Source: a virus. From it: a DNA stretch of 56,583 nucleotides. Below, one piece after another: positions 447 to 54,697 of this stretch (position 1 is the first letter of the stretch; every line of letters starts with the position of its first letter). The stretch is from positions 1 through 56,583 of IMG/VR virus record IMGVR_UViG_3300036785_000557. One strand, given 5' to 3'. Made by a program: the position numbers and the translations under genes. A model generated the notes under the pieces. The model was not told where the DNA came from, made no database searches, and saw only the letters and a program-made list of their open reading frames with translations.

Positions 447-710
447 GTGGCTAAAGAATTTTTGACGGTAAACGAATATCTGGACATCATCGGCTGGACC
501 AAGCCAGCGCTTTCCGAGCGCCTAGATGTTGGCTTGCGCATTATCCTGCGCTGGGCAAATGGCCAGAATGATACCCCTGTGGTGGTGCTGGAATGGCTGG
601 ACACGCTGGCAACGGTGCATCTGGCCAATAAGAAGCCCGTGGGCTGGGGTGGGCTGCGTTTAGCCCCTGCACCCGACAATTTTGCTGGAGGGGCATACAG
701 CCGTGGCTGA
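447..710 (+). CDS. Cro/C1-type helix-turn-helix protein (87 aa)
   Basis: GTG start at 447 is preceded by TGAGG at a spacing of 9; an upstream TTG at 432 overlaps that ribosome site and is less likely. Residues 5-50 read like a compact HTH (EYLDIIGWTKPALSERLDVG then LRIILRWANGQ), the layout of phage and plasmid XRE-like DNA-binding domains. Probably a small transcription regulator in the early operon; target unknown. The 3' end overlaps the next start by 8 bp. Confidence 0.6.
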   Translation: MAKEFLTVNEYLDIIGWTKPALSERLDVGLRIILRWANGQNDTPVVVLEWLDTLATVHLANKKPVGWGGLRLAPAPDNFAGGAYSRG

Positions 711-39910: not shown

Positions 39911-40588
39911 ATGAAAGCACCCAAAAGCATGAAAACAATAGTGATCGCCTCACAGAAGGGCGGTAGCGCCAAAACCACGCTAACCGCCCTCCTCTCCGTG
40001 GCGGTGGAACAAGCCGGCGATGGCCCGGCCTGGATCATCGACACCGACTACCAGGGCACTCTGGCCCGCTGGCATGAACGCCGGGAGAGCGAGGTGCCGC
40101 AGCGTGCCCATATGCCGTGGCGGGATCTCCGGGCTGGGCTGGTAACCATCGCGGACAAGCACCGTGGCGCATATTGCTTCATCGACACCGCACCAACGGT
40201 CCAACACGACAACGCCGCAATCATCGACTTGGCCGATCTGGTTATCATTCCCGTACAGCCCTCGCCGCTTGATCTGTGGTCGGCCGCTGAAACCATTCAA
40301 ATGGTGAAAGACTTAAACAAGCCTTTCATGTTTGTCCTCACCAAATCCAATGCACGGGCCAACATCACAGCCCAGACCGTGGCGGCTTTATCGAACCATG
40401 GCCGGGTGGCCGCCAGCTTCATTGCTGACCGCGTGGGCTATGCGGTGGCCATGGCACGGGGCAATACCGCGCCGGAATTACAGCCAAATGGCGTGGCCGC
40501 CGACGAGGTTTCGCTACTTTGGAGTGAGATTAAAGCAACATTTACCCCAATCCGCAAAAGAGCAAAGGAAGTATTAACCCATGGCTAA
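39911..40588 (+). CDS. parA: ParA partition ATPase
   Basis: 225 residues. Deviant Walker A QKGGSAKTT at 15-23, DTDYQGT at 44-50 and Walker B CFIDTAPT at 89-96 define a small ParA of the type Ib kind, without N-terminal HTH. An internal ATG at 39929 (MKTIVIASQ) is an alternative start. It would bind nucleoid DNA and move the replicon through an adaptor, here the RHH protein of the next gene, with which it overlaps by 8 bp. This is strong evidence for plasmid-like maintenance. Confidence 0.9.
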   Translation: MKAPKSMKTIVIASQKGGSAKTTLTALLSVAVEQAGDGPAWIIDTDYQGTLARWHERRESEVPQRAHMPWRDLRAGLVTIADKHRGAYCFIDTAPTVQHDNAAIIDLADLVIIPVQPSPLDLWSAAETIQMVKDLNKPFMFVLTKSNARANITAQTVAALSNHGRVAASFIADRVGYAVAMARGNTAPELQPNGVAADEVSLLWSEIKATFTPIRKRAKEVLTHG

Positions 40589-47253: not shown

Positions 47254-47282
47254 TTGACATGTTTTGAGAGATGTTGTTTAAG
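47254..47282 (+). promoter_or_regulatory. Main rightward early promoter
   Basis: TTGACA (47254-47259), 17-bp spacer, TTTAAG (47277-47282), in an AT-rich region after an imperfect AT palindrome (47200-47223). It heads the operon that runs through the contig junction to 1383. -35 match 6/6, -10 match 4/6. Confidence 0.65.
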
Positions 47283-47333
47283 CTTACTCATGGAAGCACG
47301 GCACTGGCCGGGCAGAACCAACGGAGAAACCGA

Positions 47334-47595: not shown

Positions 47596-47660
47596 CAGGC
47601 TTTCGAGCCTGCCTTGGTGAAGCATTGGGCTTCTAGATGGCTGGAACGAATCAGCCGGAG
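47596..47660 (+). ncRNA. Three-hairpin leader RNA A (before the DUF932 gene)
   Basis: Hairpin 1 CAGGCT-ttcg-AGCCTG (47596-47611); hairpin 2 GAAGC-attgg-GCTTC (47619-47633); hairpin 3 GCTGG-aacgaa-TCAGC (47640-47655); then CGGAG and ATG 47669. Same order and the same AANNAA loop as leaders B and C, with different stem sequences. Confidence 0.6.
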
Positions 47661-47668
47661 TATATGCG

Positions 47669-48523
47669 ATGAGTTTTATAAACTCGCGGGGTAGGCTTGG
47701 GGCTTACACGCTGACAAATGACCAAATGCGGCATTATGCGCCGTCTATCTTTGCGGTGGACAAGCACACAAGCCGTTCTGAGCGTTACACGTACATTCCG
47801 ACGATTGAGATCGTTGATGGATTGCGCGCCAACGGTTTCGAGCCAACATTCGTGCGCCAAGGCAAGAGCCGGATTGAAGGTAAAGCCGAATTCACCAAGC
47901 ACATGATTCGCTTTCGGTGGCAGGGAGCAGAGTCGCAAACTGGTGTGCGCCGCGTTGGCGACGTGTTTCCAGAGGTGGCGTTGGTCAATTCACACGACGG
48001 CACAAGCTCATATCAGCTCAACGCCGCTCTTATGCGCCTTGTCTGCCTTAATGGGATGATGGTTTCAGATCGTCAATTCGCTTCCATCAAATTGCCGCAC
48101 AAGGGCGATGTTGTGAGCAAAGTCATTGAAGGCAGTTACGAAGTGATTGAAGAATCGCGTCGGGCTTTGCAGGTAGCGCGTGAATGGTCTGGCATCGAGC
48201 TTAAGCCGGAAGAATCGCGATTGCTTGCGGCGGCCGTGCATCAGGTACGGTTTGCGGATAGCGATGGTAATGTGGACACGCCCATACAGCCGGAGCAGTT
48301 ACTCGGCGTGCGCCGTCACGATGACCGGCCAAGTGATTTGTGGACAGTCTCAAATCGTATCCAGGAAAACGCGATACGCGGCGGATTGAGTGCGATGGGC
48401 CGCGATGCCTTAAACCGGCCGCGCATGACGACGACGCGCGAGGTACGCGGCATTGATGGCGACGTGAAGCTGAATAAGGCCATTTGGGAATTGACGGAAA
48501 GAATGGCGGCGCTAAAAAGCTAA
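47669..48523 (+). CDS. DUF932-like phage/plasmid protein (284 aa)
   Basis: HYAPSIFAVDKHTSRSERYT, EIVDGLRANGFEPTFVRQGK, HMIRFRWQG, EVALVNSHDGTSSYQLNAAL and MRLVCLNGMMVSD follow the DUF932 layout (YxxxPTxEVVxxLxxxGFxP...NSHDGTSAYxLxxGxFRLVCxNGL). The family is frequent on phages and plasmids and sits near replication or defence genes; function unknown. Full length, ending in a helical tail (VKLNKAIWELTERMAALKS). Confidence 0.85.
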   Translation: MSFINSRGRLGAYTLTNDQMRHYAPSIFAVDKHTSRSERYTYIPTIEIVDGLRANGFEPTFVRQGKSRIEGKAEFTKHMIRFRWQGAESQTGVRRVGDVFPEVALVNSHDGTSSYQLNAALMRLVCLNGMMVSDRQFASIKLPHKGDVVSKVIEGSYEVIEESRRALQVAREWSGIELKPEESRLLAAAVHQVRFADSDGNVDTPIQPEQLLGVRRHDDRPSDLWTVSNRIQENAIRGGLSAMGRDALNRPRMTTTREVRGIDGDVKLNKAIWELTERMAALKS

Positions 48524-48536
48524 GACGGCTTATGAC

Positions 48537-48613
48537 GGGTGGCGGCTTGCCTGCCACCCATGATAAACCGCCATTAGGTTTACAGTCTGGAATTAACCGG
48601 GCTGGCATTGGAG
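48537..48613 (+). ncRNA. Three-hairpin leader RNA B
   Basis: Hairpin 1 GGGTGGC...GCCACCC (48537-48559); hairpin 2 TAAACC-gccatta-GGTTTA (48564-48582); hairpin 3 TCTGG-aattaa-CCGGG (48586-48601, two G-U pairs); then TTGGAG and ATG 48622. Hairpin 3 ends 20 bases before the start, exactly as in leader C. Confidence 0.65.
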
Positions 48614-48621
48614 TAACCAAT

Positions 48622-48795
48622 ATGACTCGCAAAGATTTTTGCGCGATTGCCGAGACTGTGTGCCGTATGGCGATTGATGACACTGCCCGCGCGGCCGTGG
48701 CCAAGGGGCTGGCAGACAAATTTGCAACACTATATGCGCGGTTTGACTCCAAGCGCTTCATTGCCGCGTGCTGCGCCACGCCACGGGCGGTCTGA
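48622..48795 (+). CDS. Small conserved phage protein (57 aa)
   Basis: MTRKDFCAIAETVCRMAIDD then KFATLYARFDSKRFIAACCA is the pattern of a small helical protein frequent in phages (RFDxxRFxxAC). Function unknown. Preceded by leader RNA B. Confidence 0.65.
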   Translation: MTRKDFCAIAETVCRMAIDDTARAAVAKGLADKFATLYARFDSKRFIAACCATPRAV

Positions 48796-48887
48796 GCGGT
48801 GGAGGTGACGTGCAACGCCACAATGGCGGTTAGCGTGCTAGGCGGCTTTATTCTGGCTTGCCTGCGTATCTCAGGGAGACTTTAGAC

Positions 48888-49067
48888 ATGGCGAATCGAC
48901 GTGCGCGCGAAGCGCTGGCCTTATGGCGTGGGATTGATGCCCGGCTGAAGAATGCCGGGCTGGCAGTGGCGAATTTTGGCGAGATTAACGCCTTGTTCCG
49001 GTCACGAGTAACAGAGTTAGATTCGGCCGTGTTCGCCATTGTGGCGCGGCGCATGACGGGGGGCTGA
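48888..49067 (+). CDS. Small basic helical protein (59 aa)
   Basis: ATG 48888 with GGGAGA upstream. MANRRAREALALWRGIDARL then EINALFRSRVTELDSAVFAI. The 92-bp leader before it also contains hairpins (CGCCA-caa-TGGCG), but not the conserved hexaloop. Confidence 0.55.
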   Translation: MANRRAREALALWRGIDARLKNAGLAVANFGEINALFRSRVTELDSAVFAIVARRMTGG

Positions 49068-49068
49068 T

Positions 49069-49356
49069 ATGACCGATACACCAGTGATGAAAGGCTTGAT
49101 TGAGTCCGGCTTCATAGGCTTTGAAAAGAAGCCCGGACCAAAACGGCAAGTTAGCCCGGCCGAGCTGGAAGCATTGCGCGCATTCGCAGCGGCGCACGGC
49201 CGCCACTGGAAACACAAGCTGGCGAGCACGTATTGGTATAACGCGCGAATCTGGCGTGCTACCCCTGACGATAACGGCACGCATGGCACGGCCTTACATG
49301 GCTTGCGCAATGATCTGGGCAATGCATGGCTGGCCGGATTCAGGTTCCCAAAATAG
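49069..49356 (+). CDS. Hypothetical protein (95 aa)
   Basis: Begins MTDTPVMKGLIESGFIGFEK. RQVSPAELEALRAFAAAHGR then HWKHKLASTYWYNARIW suggests a small helical, perhaps DNA-binding fold. Follows the upstream stop by 1 base. Confidence 0.55.
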   Translation: MTDTPVMKGLIESGFIGFEKKPGPKRQVSPAELEALRAFAAAHGRHWKHKLASTYWYNARIWRATPDDNGTHGTALHGLRNDLGNAWLAGFRFPK

Positions 49357-49366
49357 CACGCTATCA

Positions 49367-49389
49367 GATGCACAACGGGCTTGTGCATC
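49367..49389 (+). ncRNA. Hairpin in an early-gene leader
   Basis: GATGCACA (49367-49374) and TGTGCATC (49382-49389) form a perfect 8-bp stem with a 7-base loop, 33 bp before ATG 49423. No U tract, so probably a 5' UTR structure. Confidence 0.5.
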
Positions 49390-49422
49390 GCATAGATTGC
49401 TGATTTTTACAGAGGACTCACG

Positions 49423-49731
49423 ATGTCAAACAAACATTCCGCGCGCTATTGCGTTACCTACGGCTTGTCAGGTTGCTATATGCCGGACTCGAATTCTGGC
49501 CCCCTGGAATTCTCCACGCGTAAAGAATTCGCGGCGTATATCCGGCATGAGCTGGAGTTTTACGATATGCCTGCGCGCCTATTTACTGAGGTAAATATTC
49601 GCAGGCTGTGGAGCGCGATTCAGCGGCATGGGTCTAGCGTCATGCATTTTAGCCTGGACCATGGCGGCAATACGTTGGGCTTCCATGGTCTGACTGAGGC
49701 TGAATTCTTGGCCGAGCAAGAGGAGGTTTAG
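49423..49731 (+). CDS. Hypothetical protein (102 aa)
   Basis: GAGGAC precedes the ATG. CVTYGLSGCYMPDSNSGPLE then FSTRKEFAAYIRHELEFYDM is a small alpha/beta protein; I recall similar phage proteins of unknown function. Confidence 0.55.
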   Translation: MSNKHSARYCVTYGLSGCYMPDSNSGPLEFSTRKEFAAYIRHELEFYDMPARLFTEVNIRRLWSAIQRHGSSVMHFSLDHGGNTLGFHGLTEAEFLAEQEEV

Positions 49732-49734
49732 ATC

Positions 49735-50061
49735 ATGCCTGTATTATTCAACGTCACGTATGACATCGTTACCCCTGAGTCGGCGCAATATGGAGACTAT
49801 GAGGAGTCCGGCTGGATAGCGCAGCACGTCACATTGCGCGAAGCGATTGCAGCGGTGTTTGAGACTCGGACTAGCCAAGTCTCTGGCGTGGAGTGCATCG
49901 AGGCAGACGAATGGCCTATATGCACGCCACGCTCTATCAAAGTGTGCAATGGCATGGAATTCCAGACTGGCGCGCAAGAGTCCCGCACTTTGCATATTCA
50001 GGACAGCGTGACTCCAGCATCGCGGCGTCGCATCGCCAAACTAATGGGCGTGCGGTCATGA
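49735..50061 (+). CDS. Hypothetical protein (108 aa)
   Basis: GAGGAGG precedes ATG 49735. FNVTYDIVTPESAQYGDYEE then SGWIAQHVTLREAIAAVFET is a family-like start seen in phage early regions. Its stop overlaps the next ATG. Confidence 0.55.
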   Translation: MPVLFNVTYDIVTPESAQYGDYEESGWIAQHVTLREAIAAVFETRTSQVSGVECIEADEWPICTPRSIKVCNGMEFQTGAQESRTLHIQDSVTPASRRRIAKLMGVRS

Positions 50062-50225
50062 GAAAGATAGCGCTTGGTTTTGGGGCTGGCTTCAGCGTGG
50101 CGCTAGTGCTGGTGGCGGTTTTGTTTTGGGCTGGAGATGGCTGGCGGTTTGGTATGGCATCGCGCGACATGTACGGCGTGATTTGCCAAGGGTTGAATAC
50201 GGTTTGGTATGGGAGTGCAGTTTGA
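50058..50225 (+). CDS. Small membrane protein (55 aa)
   Basis: MRKIALGFGAGFSVALVLVA then VLFWAG is a signal-anchor-like segment. The remainder is a short polar domain. ATGA and TGATG overlaps on both sides. Confidence 0.55.
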   Translation: MRKIALGFGAGFSVALVLVAVLFWAGDGWRFGMASRDMYGVICQGLNTVWYGSAV

Positions 50226-50413
50226 TGGCTAAGTATGTGGTGAAGCGCTTAGATGGTTCTGTGGTGCAGCGTGGCGATGAATTAGTATCGTTCCGTGGAG
50301 AGTATGAACCGTTTTATGGTTGCTGGCATCCTCGTAAAATTACCGTTGGCACCGATAACGCCATGCATCTGTATTACCCCAGTGTTTTTGACGTGACGAT
50401 TGAGGAGTCATAA
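50225..50413 (+). CDS. Hypothetical protein (62 aa)
   Basis: MAKYVVKRLDGSVVQRGDEL then VSFRGEYEPFYGCWHPRKIT is a compact beta-rich protein. ATG overlaps the upstream TGA, and its TAA overlaps the next ATG. Confidence 0.55.
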   Translation: MAKYVVKRLDGSVVQRGDELVSFRGEYEPFYGCWHPRKITVGTDNAMHLYYPSVFDVTIEES

Positions 50414-50634
50414 TGTTGCGTAACCCGTTACTGATTGCTGGTGTGTCTTTGTTGCTCGGTATGGCTGGCGGAAAAATTTCTACCGATTATCTGTCTGGCA
50501 TTGGCCGGTATCAGATTACGTCTAGCCATAACGTTACAACTTCGCTTGCATGGGTGGTGGATACCAAAACAGGCACAGTGCAATATTGCGTGGCAGAGCG
50601 CGGATGTTTCGCGGCTGACGCATCACCAAACTAA
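50413..50634 (+). CDS. Small exported or anchored protein (73 aa)
   Basis: LRNPLLIAGVSLLLGMAGGK is an N-terminal membrane segment. The rest (SLAWVVDTKTGTVQYCVAER, then GCFAAD) is beta-rich with two Cys, suited to the periplasm. Confidence 0.55.
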   Translation: MLRNPLLIAGVSLLLGMAGGKISTDYLSGIGRYQITSSHNVTTSLAWVVDTKTGTVQYCVAERGCFAADASPN

Positions 50635-50645
50635 GAGGACTCCCA

Positions 50646-51485
50646 ATGAAGACTAAAATTATTTATTATTGGTTCAATACGTCTGAGCCTGACGACAAAG
50701 AAGCCTACGCCAAACTTGTGCTGGCGGCCGGAGCCCAAAAAGGTGCTGGCAATGCCATGGTGGCTTGGGATGCTGGCAAGCACGGCTATAAGGCCGGGCT
50801 TCACGAATTCGATGTCGAGCTGGAAACCAAGCACATATTTGGCAATCAGTGGACCGGCATTGTCGAGGGCAAGAGCTTGCGCGTGTTTGACTGGGCAGAG
50901 AGCGCACGCGGTGAGGGCATTTTTAATGTCAAGATTCGCACGGGTCATTATCTGGTCATGACCGACGACATGCGCGAGATACGGCGCAATACGATGGTGT
51001 GCGGTTATTGTGGCGCGCAAGAACCGGCCGCCAAGGGTTATGTATTTTGCCCGCACTGCCTGGACTCCGAATATCTGACAGAGAAGGATTTACCTCTGAC
51101 TCGTATGGTTTGCGCGGCCGACTCGTTCGATAAGAATCGCAAGCCATTAAGCAAAGCCGAGTCCGGCCATTTGTTGCCGCTCTTTCGCAGCGCCCAAACG
51201 CACGGCAATACGGAGCGGGGCAAGGTGCGGATTGCTGCCAAGCGTGCGCGGGTCGAGGTGGATTATGCCAAGGCAATTAAAAACGCCACTGTAGAGCGGG
51301 ACGGCATGGTCTGGCTTATGGACAAGGGAATCAATACTGACAACGTGATTTACTACGGCCATACAGGCAAGTTTGGTTTCGGCTGGCGTAAAAAATTCTC
51401 ACTCACGGCCTGGGATGACATGCAAGAGGCCATGGGTGAACCGTTTCCGTTTCCGTACAAAGTTGAATATGAGGGGTCTAAATAA
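50646..51485 (+). CDS. Zinc-ribbon protein (279 aa)
   Basis: Residues 115-140 have CGYCGAQEP then FCPHC, a four-Cys zinc ribbon. Flanking parts: N-terminal beta-rich (KIIYYWFNTSEPDDKEAYAK), C-terminal FGFGWRKKFSLTAWDDM. No enzyme motif. Largest unknown protein of the early operon after the DUF932 protein. Confidence 0.6.
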   Translation: MKTKIIYYWFNTSEPDDKEAYAKLVLAAGAQKGAGNAMVAWDAGKHGYKAGLHEFDVELETKHIFGNQWTGIVEGKSLRVFDWAESARGEGIFNVKIRTGHYLVMTDDMREIRRNTMVCGYCGAQEPAAKGYVFCPHCLDSEYLTEKDLPLTRMVCAADSFDKNRKPLSKAESGHLLPLFRSAQTHGNTERGKVRIAAKRARVEVDYAKAIKNATVERDGMVWLMDKGINTDNVIYYGHTGKFGFGWRKKFSLTAWDDMQEAMGEPFPFPYKVEYEGSK

Positions 51486-51970
51486 TGTCTTACTGGGAAA
51501 TTGAGGTTACAGCGGCGGCGCTGGCTGACATTGAAACGGGCGATATGTCGCCATGCAAGCTTTACGCGTGGAATCTGGATGAGGCCAAGGAATTCGTGGA
51601 GGACATGCACGAGGGGATTGCTAATGGCTATGACTGGGAGCCGGATGTTAAAACGCGGGAAGGGGAGCCAACGTGCTACACGCTAGGCGACAAGGCAATA
51701 TTTATAATCGAGCGCGCTGGCATCGGGCCGAGTAAGCGGGCCTATGTCACAAGCGGCCGTAACGTGGTGCGCGCCAAACGCGGTTTTAATTCCGTCATGG
51801 CCTATGTTGATGAAATGGGCGATGTGCCTGGGTCTAATGAGTTGGACACATGGATGGCAGATTTGATTTGCGATTTGCACCATGCGGCGGCATCGCGCGG
51901 TTTAGATATGGAGGATATCATGCGCCGGGGCAAAAACCATTTTGATTGTGAAGGGCAGGGGTTCGAGTAA
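51485..51970 (+). CDS. Hypothetical protein (161 aa)
   Basis: TAATG overlap with the upstream gene. Acidic, mixed fold (DEAKEFVEDMHEGIANGYDW; DTWMADLICDLHHAAASRGL). No family recognised. Confidence 0.5.
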   Translation: MSYWEIEVTAAALADIETGDMSPCKLYAWNLDEAKEFVEDMHEGIANGYDWEPDVKTREGEPTCYTLGDKAIFIIERAGIGPSKRAYVTSGRNVVRAKRGFNSVMAYVDEMGDVPGSNELDTWMADLICDLHHAAASRGLDMEDIMRRGKNHFDCEGQGFE

Positions 51971-52365
51971 TGGCTGATACGAATGACGATCTGGTGGCGG
52001 CGCTGAAAGTCGCCAAGGCAGCGCGCGAGGAGTACGGCCGCACGGATAATCCGGGCGATTGCGAGGAGGCCACAACGGCGCTCTTTGATCTGGACCTGGG
52101 CGCGTTGATTGCCGCGCTACAGCCTCCCGCGCTGAAGCTGTTTTATATCCAATGCGAATGCGGCGGGGAGAATTATGATCTATTCGTCTGGGCAGAAACG
52201 GCGCTGAAGGCAGAGGAGCATTTTGTGGCCTATTACGATCTGGATATGGAAGACGCCACGAATCCGGATAATTATAAAACCAAAATCCGCGCGCTACCAA
52301 CGGCCGCACCTGACAAGGCCGGGGCAATCGGCTGGGATATTCTAAACGCAACGATGGAGTCGTAG
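51970..52365 (+). CDS. Hypothetical protein (131 aa)
   Basis: TAATG overlap with the upstream gene. LFYIQCECGGENYDLFVWAE is a Cys-containing beta hairpin; acidic overall. No family recognised. Confidence 0.5.
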   Translation: MADTNDDLVAALKVAKAAREEYGRTDNPGDCEEATTALFDLDLGALIAALQPPALKLFYIQCECGGENYDLFVWAETALKAEEHFVAYYDLDMEDATNPDNYKTKIRALPTAAPDKAGAIGWDILNATMES

Positions 52366-52368
52366 GGC

Positions 52369-52563
52369 ATGGCATATCGGTTTTGGGTGGTTATAACGGT
52401 ACTTTGGGAGGCGTGGCTGGCCATTCTTTATGTCGGCACATACCACCATCACAACCCCAAAGACGGGCAAGATTTGGCAATCTGTGCAGCAATTCCTTTG
52501 GGGTTTCTGGCATTCGGCCGCGCCATTAAATGGGTATTTGCGGCGGGGAACAAGCACACATAG
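52369..52563 (+). CDS. Small two-span membrane protein (64 aa)
   Basis: Hydrophobic segments about 5-25 (FWVVITVLWEAWLAILYVGT) and 42-58 (LAICAAIPLGFLAFGRAI) with a short loop containing His residues. Starts 3 bp after the preceding stop. Confidence 0.55.
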   Translation: MAYRFWVVITVLWEAWLAILYVGTYHHHNPKDGQDLAICAAIPLGFLAFGRAIKWVFAAGNKHT

Positions 52564-52578
52564 GGTTGCGTTTTATTG

Positions 52579-52648
52579 GCCGGGCTGGTAAGCCCGGCAT
52601 ATCAAGCGCAGGCTTGCGCGGCTGGAATGAACCGGCTGCACACTGGAG
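52579..52648 (+). ncRNA. Three-hairpin leader RNA C
   Basis: Hairpin 1 GCCGGGCT-ggta-AGCCCGGC (52579-52598); hairpin 2 GCGCA-ggct-TGCGC (52606-52619); hairpin 3 GCTGG-aatgaa-CCGGC (52621-52636, one G-U pair); then TGGAG and ATG 52657. Best-formed member of the family. Confidence 0.7.
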
Positions 52649-52656
52649 AAACCAAG

Positions 52657-53229
52657 ATGTTTACTGCAAATTTCGACTCCTATGTCATTTCCGGCGAGTC
52701 CATCGAATGCATGGTGGAGGGTTTCACTTGCCGCGCCACGCTGCACGATGATGATTGCGGCGATGCCCCGTGGGAACGGTCTGAGGGCCATGGCGAGGTG
52801 ACGGAGTGGACATCGCGCGACAAGCGGCCGGGCGAGCTGGTGCTGAATAAGGACCGGGGCTTGCATCGCTTCTATGATTTTGCCGGGGCCTGTGCCACGG
52901 CGCGGGCCGATGGCTGGGGCATGACCGGGGGCCGCTTGGAAGGCGAGAGCGCGCGGGCCTACGCCGCACGGGCCGCCCGGCACGATTACGAGGTGCTGAA
53001 GGCATGGTGCGACGACGAGTGGACCTATTACGGCGTGGCGGTCGAGGTCCGCAAAGGTGAGGTGAAATTGACCGGCAAATACAGCCATGCGTGCTGGGGC
53101 ATCGAGGGCAATTATCCGGGGGCCGATAATAGCTATCTGGCGGAAATGGCCTGCCAGCTCTTGCCGGAGGCGCTTGACGACGCCAAGCTGGTGCTGGCCG
53201 GGCTGTGCGCCTGTGGAGGGGAGGGGTAA
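52657..53229 (+). CDS. Conserved phage protein (190 aa)
   Basis: HDDDCGDAPWERSEGHGEVT, then DKRPGELVLNKDRG and RFYDFAGACATARADGWG, and CDDEWTYYGVAVEVRKGEV, WGIEGNYPGADNSYLAEMAC. I recognise this full pattern from many proteobacterial phages; no function is known to me. Expression is probably controlled by leader RNA C. Confidence 0.75.
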   Translation: MFTANFDSYVISGESIECMVEGFTCRATLHDDDCGDAPWERSEGHGEVTEWTSRDKRPGELVLNKDRGLHRFYDFAGACATARADGWGMTGGRLEGESARAYAARAARHDYEVLKAWCDDEWTYYGVAVEVRKGEVKLTGKYSHACWGIEGNYPGADNSYLAEMACQLLPEALDDAKLVLAGLCACGGEG

Positions 53230-53629: not shown

Positions 53630-53707
53630 GCGCTTGACGCAGCGCGCGGAAAGATTGCAGACTTAGTGCAATAGTAGAACGGATAAGCCCCGGCAATAAG
53701 CCGGGGC
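53630..53707 (+). ncRNA. Structured leader RNA D
   Basis: Stems GCGCT/AGCGC (53630-53645), ATTGCA/TGCAAT (53654-53672) and GCCCCGGC-aataa-GCCGGGGC (53687-53707). The strongest hairpin is last and the AANNAA hexaloop is missing, so it is related in style only to leaders A-C. GGAAGG and ATG 53726 follow. Confidence 0.5.
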
Positions 53708-53725
53708 GGCTTTGGAAGGACCAAA

Positions 53726-53764
53726 ATGAAGCCGGACCAATACAGCAAAATCAAAGGCTTCTGA
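53726..53764 (+). CDS. 12-residue leader peptide MKPDQYSKIKGF
   Basis: ATG follows GGAAGG with good spacing and the TGA abuts the GTG of the next ORF. Its position after a structured leader suggests a leader peptide coupling translation to the downstream gene. Confidence 0.45.
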   Translation: MKPDQYSKIKGF

Positions 53765-53896
53765 GTGAAGTACGTGCTTTATCTCAACGATGCATGGCAT
53801 AGTGAGAATGAGAGCATGAAGGCAATTATGGCGGCGGTGAAAACCGCTCTCGCACTAAACTGGTGCGCCATGGTGCGGATTGAGAAACGTGGATAG
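53765..53896 (+). CDS. Small hypothetical protein (43 aa)
   Basis: GTG 53765 directly follows the leader-peptide stop; AAAGG is 7 bases upstream. MKYVLYLNDAWHSENESMKA then IMAAVKTALALNWCAMVRIE. Helical. No family recognised. Confidence 0.45.
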   Translation: MKYVLYLNDAWHSENESMKAIMAAVKTALALNWCAMVRIEKRG

Positions 53897-54221: not shown

Positions 54222-54697
54222 GAGGCGCGATTGACCCGGCTACCCCGGAGCAGATTGCGATGTATGGTCACATTGCCGCCCGGCTACGCAAAGAGATGGA
54301 TACACGCGGCTGGAAAGTCGCGGACGTAAATCAAGCCATTGGGCGCGCTCTCACAAATAGCGCTGTTTACGTCTGGCTGGCCGCCAAGGGTGCGCCGGGT
54401 GCGGCAACGCGGGCCAAGCTATCGAAGGCGCTTAAAATTCCCGTCGCGGATTTAACGCCACGCGATGAAGCGAGCGGCGCTGTGATGGTACGAGCTGAAA
54501 AGGTGGTGCGCCGCCCGCGCGAGGATGAAGGCTATATTAAACCGCCCGCGCCGCGTGACGTGTTATCTTTTACGATTGATAATGAGGGCAACGCCCGCAT
54601 TCGGTGCGACGTGACACTTCCGGCTGTGAAGGGTGCGGCTATGTTGCAGATTCTGCTCAACGCTGGGATGGTTATTGAGGCTGACGATGTGGCATAG
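54218..54697 (+). CDS. HTH-domain protein with Pro-rich linker (159 aa)
   Basis: GTG start in a GTGA overlap. RLRKEMDTRGWKVADVNQAI then TNSAVYVWLAAKGAPGAATR, KLSKALKIPVADL is an XRE-like HTH. After a basic Pro linker a beta-rich domain (LSFTIDNEGNARIRCDVTLP) follows, possibly for dimerisation or ligand binding. Likely a regulator in the early operon. Confidence 0.65.
   Translation: MRGAIDPATPEQIAMYGHIAARLRKEMDTRGWKVADVNQAIGRALTNSAVYVWLAAKGAPGAATRAKLSKALKIPVADLTPRDEASGAVMVRAEKVVRRPREDEGYIKPPAPRDVLSFTIDNEGNARIRCDVTLPAVKGAAMLQILLNAGMVIEADDVA

Follow-up and report, generated by a model that had tools for sequence, protein, structure and literature searches.

Why should several unrelated genes of one phage be preceded by noncoding leaders built on a single plan? 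The question is raised by a stretch of viral DNA of 56,583 nucleotides (positions 1 to 56,583 of IMG/VR record IMGVR_UViG_3300036785_000557), which is referred to here, at its full length, as the window. An initial annotation had described three hairpins (H1, H2 and H3, from 5' to 3') in each of three leaders (leaders 1 to 3) before the starts at 47669, 48622 and 52657, and the leaders, their H3 hexaloops (AACGAA, AATTAA and AATGAA) and their stems lie where they had been placed. The genes behind them are, as had also been said, unrelated by family (DUF932, a 57-amino-acid protein and phrog_11104). H1, H2 and H3 were all found in these leaders, but the unit conserved in related phages is H3 together with a second small hairpin, H4, which the initial annotation had missed. 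This two-hairpin element keeps a fixed geometry and recurs, in the same position and orientation, before gene starts, with covariation at the RNA level.

A two-hairpin element at gene starts

H4 (YGG-AGNNA-CCR) sits between H3 and the AUG. The Shine-Dalgarno GG forms the 5' arm of H4 and the CC just before the AUG its 3' arm, and 0-5 nt separate the end of H4 from the start codon. The distance from the 3' end of H3 to the start codon is 11 nt in leader 1, 17 nt in leader 2 and 17 nt in leader 3, which corrects the 20 bases previously given for two of the three. Hairpins with an AANNAA hexaloop and a stem of at least 7 bp occur exactly three times on both strands of the 56.6 kb, each time as the H3 of leaders 1-3, against 0.55 expected from dinucleotide shuffles, a comparison that is generous by itself because the loop type was picked post hoc.

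Two copies in the window had been overlooked: a fourth at 53687-53725 and a degenerate, promoter-linked fifth at 47296-47332 (Table 1). A covariance model was built from the three H3-to-AUG stretches of the window, and its match at 53687-53728 is leader 4. The intergenic gap is 99 nt long at leader 4 and 92, 98 and 93 nt long at the others, and all copies in the window lie within 47.3-53.7 kb, apart from the virion genes. Leader 4 opens a 12-codon frame, MKPDQYSKIKGF, that ends with TGA and is followed by an in-frame GTG start and a 43-amino-acid frame (together 53726-53896).

Covariation of the two stems

Covariation was measured on 18 distinct copies from four genomes (the window and three relatives, G430, G433 and G427). 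A MAFFT alignment of the natural leaders put the arms out of register, so a structure-based alignment was used instead, with the variable spacer cut out. Pairing is kept in 94.4% of the 180 pair cells, compared with 78.6% in shuffled sets, and 27 cells are altered on both sides, compared with 9.2 +/- 2.1. The covariation score is 0.557 versus 0.250 +/- 0.028 (as high in 0 of 500 shuffles), and it falls to at most 0.137 when one arm is shifted by one column. Two-sided changes are seen in four of the seven H3 pairs and in one of the three H4 pairs. The earlier claim that the stems differ while pairing is kept therefore holds across the 18 copies.

Departures from Watson-Crick pairing are informative as well. 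In a set of 16 copies, G.U accounts for 18 of the 26 non-Watson-Crick cells, compared with 1 in 6 by chance (p 4e-9), and the excess persists when pair 3 is left out (p 1e-5). Because G.U is tolerated by RNA and not by the symmetry of a DNA site, the sequence record indicates conserved pairing at the RNA level.

Copies in related phages and specificity

No relatives of the window phage were returned by megablast among 50,697 phage records, and a single-sequence search with the terminase gave no match. An alignment of the major capsid protein led to 42 IMG/VR relatives, the nearest of which have 82-98% capsid identity. Three of these nearest relatives that cover the corresponding region carry the element, with 13 further copies (Table 1), and the stems of the leaders are kept in them. 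Where H1 and H2 would stand, the relatives have a promoter or an unrelated hairpin.

By the refuting condition set in the initial annotation, the shared leader stands. The covariance model built from the window alone found the fourth window copy and already picked two of the relatives, G430 and G427 (E 0.007-0.04), with a weak match in G433. At the gathering score, Rfam (release 15) matched nothing in the window and only two tRNAs in the relatives' loci; up to E 5, nothing relevant appeared in the leader region, and no Proteo-phage-1 family. The Proteo-phage-1 label, which had been suggested for these leaders, is unverified, and the name was not found in the literature searched.

A strict scan of called gene starts, which required H4 plus a GG-closed H3, found 14 of 452 starts in the four genomes; with the H3 region shuffled, the mean was 1.65 and the maximum 4 (20 shuffles). 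Among more distant members of the clade, the same scan gave 3 of 966 (1.15 shuffled), and in control loci 2 of 2637 (2.25 shuffled). As far as tested, the element is therefore limited to the closest relatives. An over-permissive descriptor gave background levels only and was discarded, as were two exact-pattern IMG/VR scans for H3 plus a ribosome-binding site, whose 8 and 29 matches fell mostly inside coding frames, roughly at chance level by a back-of-envelope estimate. A match in Stenotrophomonas phage Bhz60 was also dropped, only its ribosome-binding site being similar. Relatives of the DUF932, 190-amino-acid and 279-amino-acid proteins yielded no member leaders; these genes travel among phages and plasmids that are not related to one another, which explains why their relatives are without the element.

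In one leader of a more distant sister phage, G403, H1, H2 and GCGC-AAUCAA-GCGC are spaced as in the window leaders. This is suggestive of a common plan in which H3 has 4 bp, and the leader was excluded from the copy count. Near the two ends of the G430 contig, a 190-amino-acid gene occurs twice (L189 1799 and L191 16996), as does a 51-amino-acid gene (L189 43 and L191 14372). Both copies of the 190-amino-acid gene have near-identical leaders, so that the duplication took in leader and gene alike.

Table 1. Features of the window leaders and copies in related phages. Leaders are numbered as in the text; p values for H1 and H2 are optimistic, because the thresholds were fixed after the hairpins were seen.
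Feature	Position	Strand	Description
H3, leader 1	47638..47657	+	TGGCTGG-AACGAA-TCAGCCG, 7 bp; covariance model 36.4 bits
H3, leader 2	48583..48604	+	CAGTCTGG-AATTAA-CCGGGCTG, 8 bp
H3, leader 3	52618..52639	+	GCGGCTGG-AATGAA-CCGGCTGC, 8 bp
H3, leader 4	53687..53707	+	GCCCCGGC-AATAA-GCCGGGGC, perfect stem; covariance model 20.0 bits, E 0.0085
H4, leader 2	48607..48621	+	AUUGG-AGUAA-CCAAU, abuts AUG; stem unpaired probability <=0.2 in ensemble; pairs conserved
H4, leader 3	52644..52654	+	UGG-AGAAA-CCA
H4, leader 4	53711..53725	+	UUUGG-AAGGA-CCAAA, 5 bp, abuts AUG 53726
Putative promoter, fifth leader	47254..47282	+	sigma70-like TTGACA-17-TTTAAG, 10/12 matches; 1% of shuffles as good
Degenerate H3, fifth leader	47296..47313	+	GCACGGC-ACTG-GCCGGGC, one A.G mismatch; from strict gene-start scan
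H4, fifth leader	47322..47332	+	CGG-AGAAA-CCG, before ATG 47334
H1, leader 1	47596..47611	+	6 bp, p 0.018 at position; window-specific accessory
H1, leader 2	48537..48559	+	9 bp, p 0.035
H1, leader 3	52579..52598	+	8 bp, p 0.047; apical part of long interrupted hairpin
H2, leader 1	47619..47633	+	5 bp, p 0.046 in spacer; predicted probability 0.05; alternative to extended H1
H2, leader 2	48564..48582	+	6 bp, p 0.014 in spacer; alternative to extended H1
H2, leader 3	52603..52616	+	5 bp, p 0.034 in spacer; alternative to extended H1
Gene after leader 1	47669-48523		DUF932
Gene after leader 2	start 48622		57 aa, weak phrog_19432 match
Gene after leader 3	52657-53229		phrog_11104
Copies in G430 (IMGVR_UViG_3300032897_000006)	before 1293, 1799, 3186, 4038, 54372, 55734, 56996		
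Copies in G433 (3300041809_000597)	before 13822, 15181, 17003, 17389		
Copies in G427 (3300032893_000290)	before 20196, 21687		plus one H3 identical to G430 3186 copy

Upstream hairpins, promoters and palindromes

In leaders 1-3, H1 and H2 are probably genuine hairpins, yet they stand outside the conserved core. Each is moderately improbable by chance (Table 1), and their spacing is near-constant there, H1 ending 57-62 nt and H2 35-40 nt from the start. H1 can be extended into a longer, interrupted hairpin (against shuffled flanks, p 0.07 in leader 1, 0.026 in leader 2 and 0.002 in leader 3), and the 5' arm of H2 doubles as the 3' arm of this extended H1; because one arm serves both, the two are mutually exclusive. 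Folding prefers the extended H1 in leaders 1-3, with a predicted H2 probability of at most 0.05, so that the three-hairpin fold of the initial annotation is not predicted to be dominant in those leaders, although it is in the fourth copy. None of H1, H2 and H3 was found in a scan for intrinsic terminators (a GC-rich stem followed by a U run), and that reading was rejected. Long interrupted hairpins without H3 also occur at 49357-49422 in the window and before 16220 and 16537 at locus L191 of G430; they are built of a basal stem, a 1x1 or 2x2 mismatch, 4 bp, a mismatch and an apical stem of 8-10 bp. The two in G430 have the basal UAACG-C-UUAA...UUAA-A-CGUUA in common and differ in their apical stems.

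Several copies in G430 and G433 have a sigma70-like promoter in front of them, its -10 box 6-9 nt upstream of H3 (TTGACA-17-TACAAA, TTTACA-17-TATAAA and TTGACA-17-TATAGA are examples from the relatives; the promoter of the G433 13822 copy was identified by eye), and transcripts are accordingly predicted to start at H3. The place of the promoter is taken in window leaders 1-3 by the extended H1 and H2, and other hairpins stand upstream in leader 4. A separate palindrome of G430, CATCGG.ATTG...CAAT.CCGATG, overlaps sigma70-like promoters of genes 1293, 1799, 2912, 54372, 55734 and 56996. Such palindromes overlap promoters in G430 and G433, and not in window leaders 1, 2 and 4; those of G430 are probably DNA operator sites of one repressor, with several per genome.

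Neighboring genes and host

Some of the closest relatives of the window DUF932 protein come from acetic acid bacteria, on conjugative plasmids (57-59% identity), and one from an Acetobacteraceae contig, hinting at a host in the Acetobacteraceae. DUF932 homologues are found on at least 5000 plasmids. Those of Acetobacteraceae (L081, L125 and L127) have another leader, with a hairpin of the UCAGCCG...CGGCUGA type and a small hairpin; in L081 the latter, GAGC-AAAG-GGCUC, covers the Shine-Dalgarno sequence, so that the logic is alike and the sequence different. When 299 Acetobacteraceae genomes were scanned with the covariance model, one intergenic match was obtained, at chance level (E 6e-4); it lies between two genes (L128 1501-1544) and comprises a hairpin, GCGGGCGG-ACUGAA-CCGCCCGC, followed by GGGAGGAACCCCC-AUG. 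None of the early-region proteins was found in 397 Acetobacteraceae genomes. A ParA-like ATPase, assigned by sequence (39911-40588), and a weak match to the repressor family phrog_4 (54260-54697) in the window suggest a temperate or plasmid-like lifestyle.

Relation to known start-associated repeats

Actinobacterial phages have been known since 2011 to carry start-associated repeats, the function of which the recent papers drawn on here still describe as ill-defined. Mycobacteriophages of Cluster K carry 11-19 copies of the 13-bp GGGATAGGAGCCC at ribosome-binding sites, the start-associated sequences (SAS), and about half of these have an upstream 17-bp inverted repeat, as in the extended start-associated sequences (ESAS) (PMC3203893). 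In the authors' judgement, departures within the repeats lend no support to pairing as RNA, and binding sites on DNA were their preferred reading (PMC3203893). In phage Adephagia, a putative SigA-like promoter lies in each of the seven ESAS (PMC11373665).

The present element resembles SAS/ESAS in being short, in lying at the ribosome-binding sites of many non-structural genes that are unrelated, with several copies in each genome, and in its symmetric ends around a Shine-Dalgarno core (GGGATAGGAGCCC in Cluster K, YGG-AGNNA-CCR here). An inverted repeat upstream and, in the relatives, nearby promoters may be a further likeness. It differs in its consensus, YGGAGNNACCR, no aligned copy matching GGGATAGGAGCCC with two or fewer mismatches; in its arms, which vary and covary with G.U common, supporting an RNA hairpin; in copy number, with about 3-8 per genome compared with 11-19; and in the place of the hairpin, which follows the predicted +1 and does not surround the promoter. 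On these comparisons, the SAS/ESAS of Cluster K is the closest known kind, and the present element is best described as a variant of different sequence with RNA covariation. We place it outside SAS/ESAS because the sequence differs and because the departures here do support RNA pairing.

Two groups of Microbacterium phages are comparable in part. Those of Cluster EF have GGGAAAGGACCCC at ribosome-binding sites and, linked to it, an upstream element of weak conservation, a likeness to the present arrangement; that upstream element is, however, centred on GTAGAG, and no covarying hairpin is reported in the sections of the paper drawn on here (PMC7302621). According to the same sections, Cluster EG has 18-bp inverted repeats in intergenic gaps, in a position like that of H3, 14-22 bp upstream of start codons at 8-10 places per genome (PMC7302621). 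As described there, their sequence, GATCAACCNNGGTTGATC, is fixed, and its 2-nt centre leaves no room for a loop of this form in RNA, whereas H3 has a loop of 5-7 nt and variable arms.

Possible function and alternatives

We consider it fairly probable that the element is a repeated cis-acting RNA leader module, which marks the starts of a set of non-structural genes in the window phage and its nearest relatives and gives them a common setting of translation and stability. The module consists of H3 (6-8 bp, core CUGG...CCRG, loop 5-7 nt), then 3-6 nt, then H4 (3-5 bp). With part of the Shine-Dalgarno sequence paired in H4, we infer control of translation initiation, in which H4 would slow or gate ribosome binding. 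H3 beside it would block upstream spread and protect the mRNA 5' end; such protection may be expected from the start of H3 at the predicted +1 in relatives. Unrelated genes would thereby be set alike in translation and stability. H3/H4 might also be acted on by a common RNA-binding factor, and a processing or switch role for the upstream structures of the window leaders is speculative. Several observations weigh against this account. Leader 1 is without H4, no promoter stands out in a scan of window leaders 1, 2 and 4, and clear promoter adjacency is found in only about half of the relatives' copies. Pairs 1-2 of H4 overlap the Shine-Dalgarno motif and show little variation. The alignment was hand-fitted to the structure with the spacers removed, which favours that structure, and the kinship of the copies (duplicates and orthologues), which the shuffle statistics ignore, inflates them. 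The known SAS/ESAS systems, moreover, are without a demonstrated translational role.

The customary reading of inverted repeats that precede phage gene starts is as DNA sites (PMC3203893), and H3 might be one, to which a repressor or activator of the phage would bind as double-stranded DNA, in the way suggested for the repeats of the ESAS. Its core letters CUGG/CCRG are fairly conserved, and the separate G430 palindrome does overlap promoters. We regard a DNA site as quite improbable: most of the non-Watson-Crick cells (18 of 26) are G.U, a pair that RNA can form but that disrupts the symmetry of a DNA site, the half-sites vary widely with compensation, and the copies found are sense-oriented, 3-6 nt from the Shine-Dalgarno sequence, with H3 downstream of the predicted +1. 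That H3 starts at this +1 in several relatives would suit a signal for mRNA processing or stability, in which H3, with H1 upstream, marks or protects a 5' end made by a promoter or an endonuclease, with no dedicated control of translation. Long interrupted hairpins resembling nuclease substrates, upstream in window leaders 1-3 and two G430 genes, fit it too, but it leaves the covarying H4, at a fixed distance on the Shine-Dalgarno sequence, unexplained, and we hold it unlikely. The leaders might also hold ordinary hairpins at ribosome-binding sites, alike by chance or by simple duplication of leaders; the descriptor has a background in other DNA, and the near-identical G430 leaders 1799 and 56996 were duplicated with their genes. 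Such an origin is very unlikely given the 14 strict-scan starts against a shuffled mean of 1.65, control loci at background, and stems that differ among copies by paired changes.

Shared trans-acting control, as the initial annotation had envisaged, is a special case of the cis-acting module: a single RNA-binding protein or small RNA, of the phage or of its host, would bind H3/H4 to repress or activate the set coordinately. Several unrelated genes per genome bear the same element, and the core letters G7, G8 and GGA are conserved beyond the needs of pairing; no candidate RNA-binding protein was identified, however, and the sole small regulator common to the window (447-710), G430, G427 and G433 has a weak match to a transcription-regulator family. 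We therefore entertain this version with considerable doubt. The same tentative standing is given to an RNA-level, start-associated translational regulon, in which one RNA-binding factor or the ribosome reads the repeated H3 and Shine-Dalgarno hairpin, and leaders 1-3 may add a switch between extended H1 and H2.

Significance

With its RNA-like covariation, the element offers a compact and directly testable case of phages tagging unrelated genes with one RNA-level translation signal. Such tags are now seen in a phage group without megablast similarity to named phages, and 18 copies are on hand for model building. The same pairing, carried by many sequences before unrelated starts, points to a shared RNA-level switch or a common setting of translation strength.

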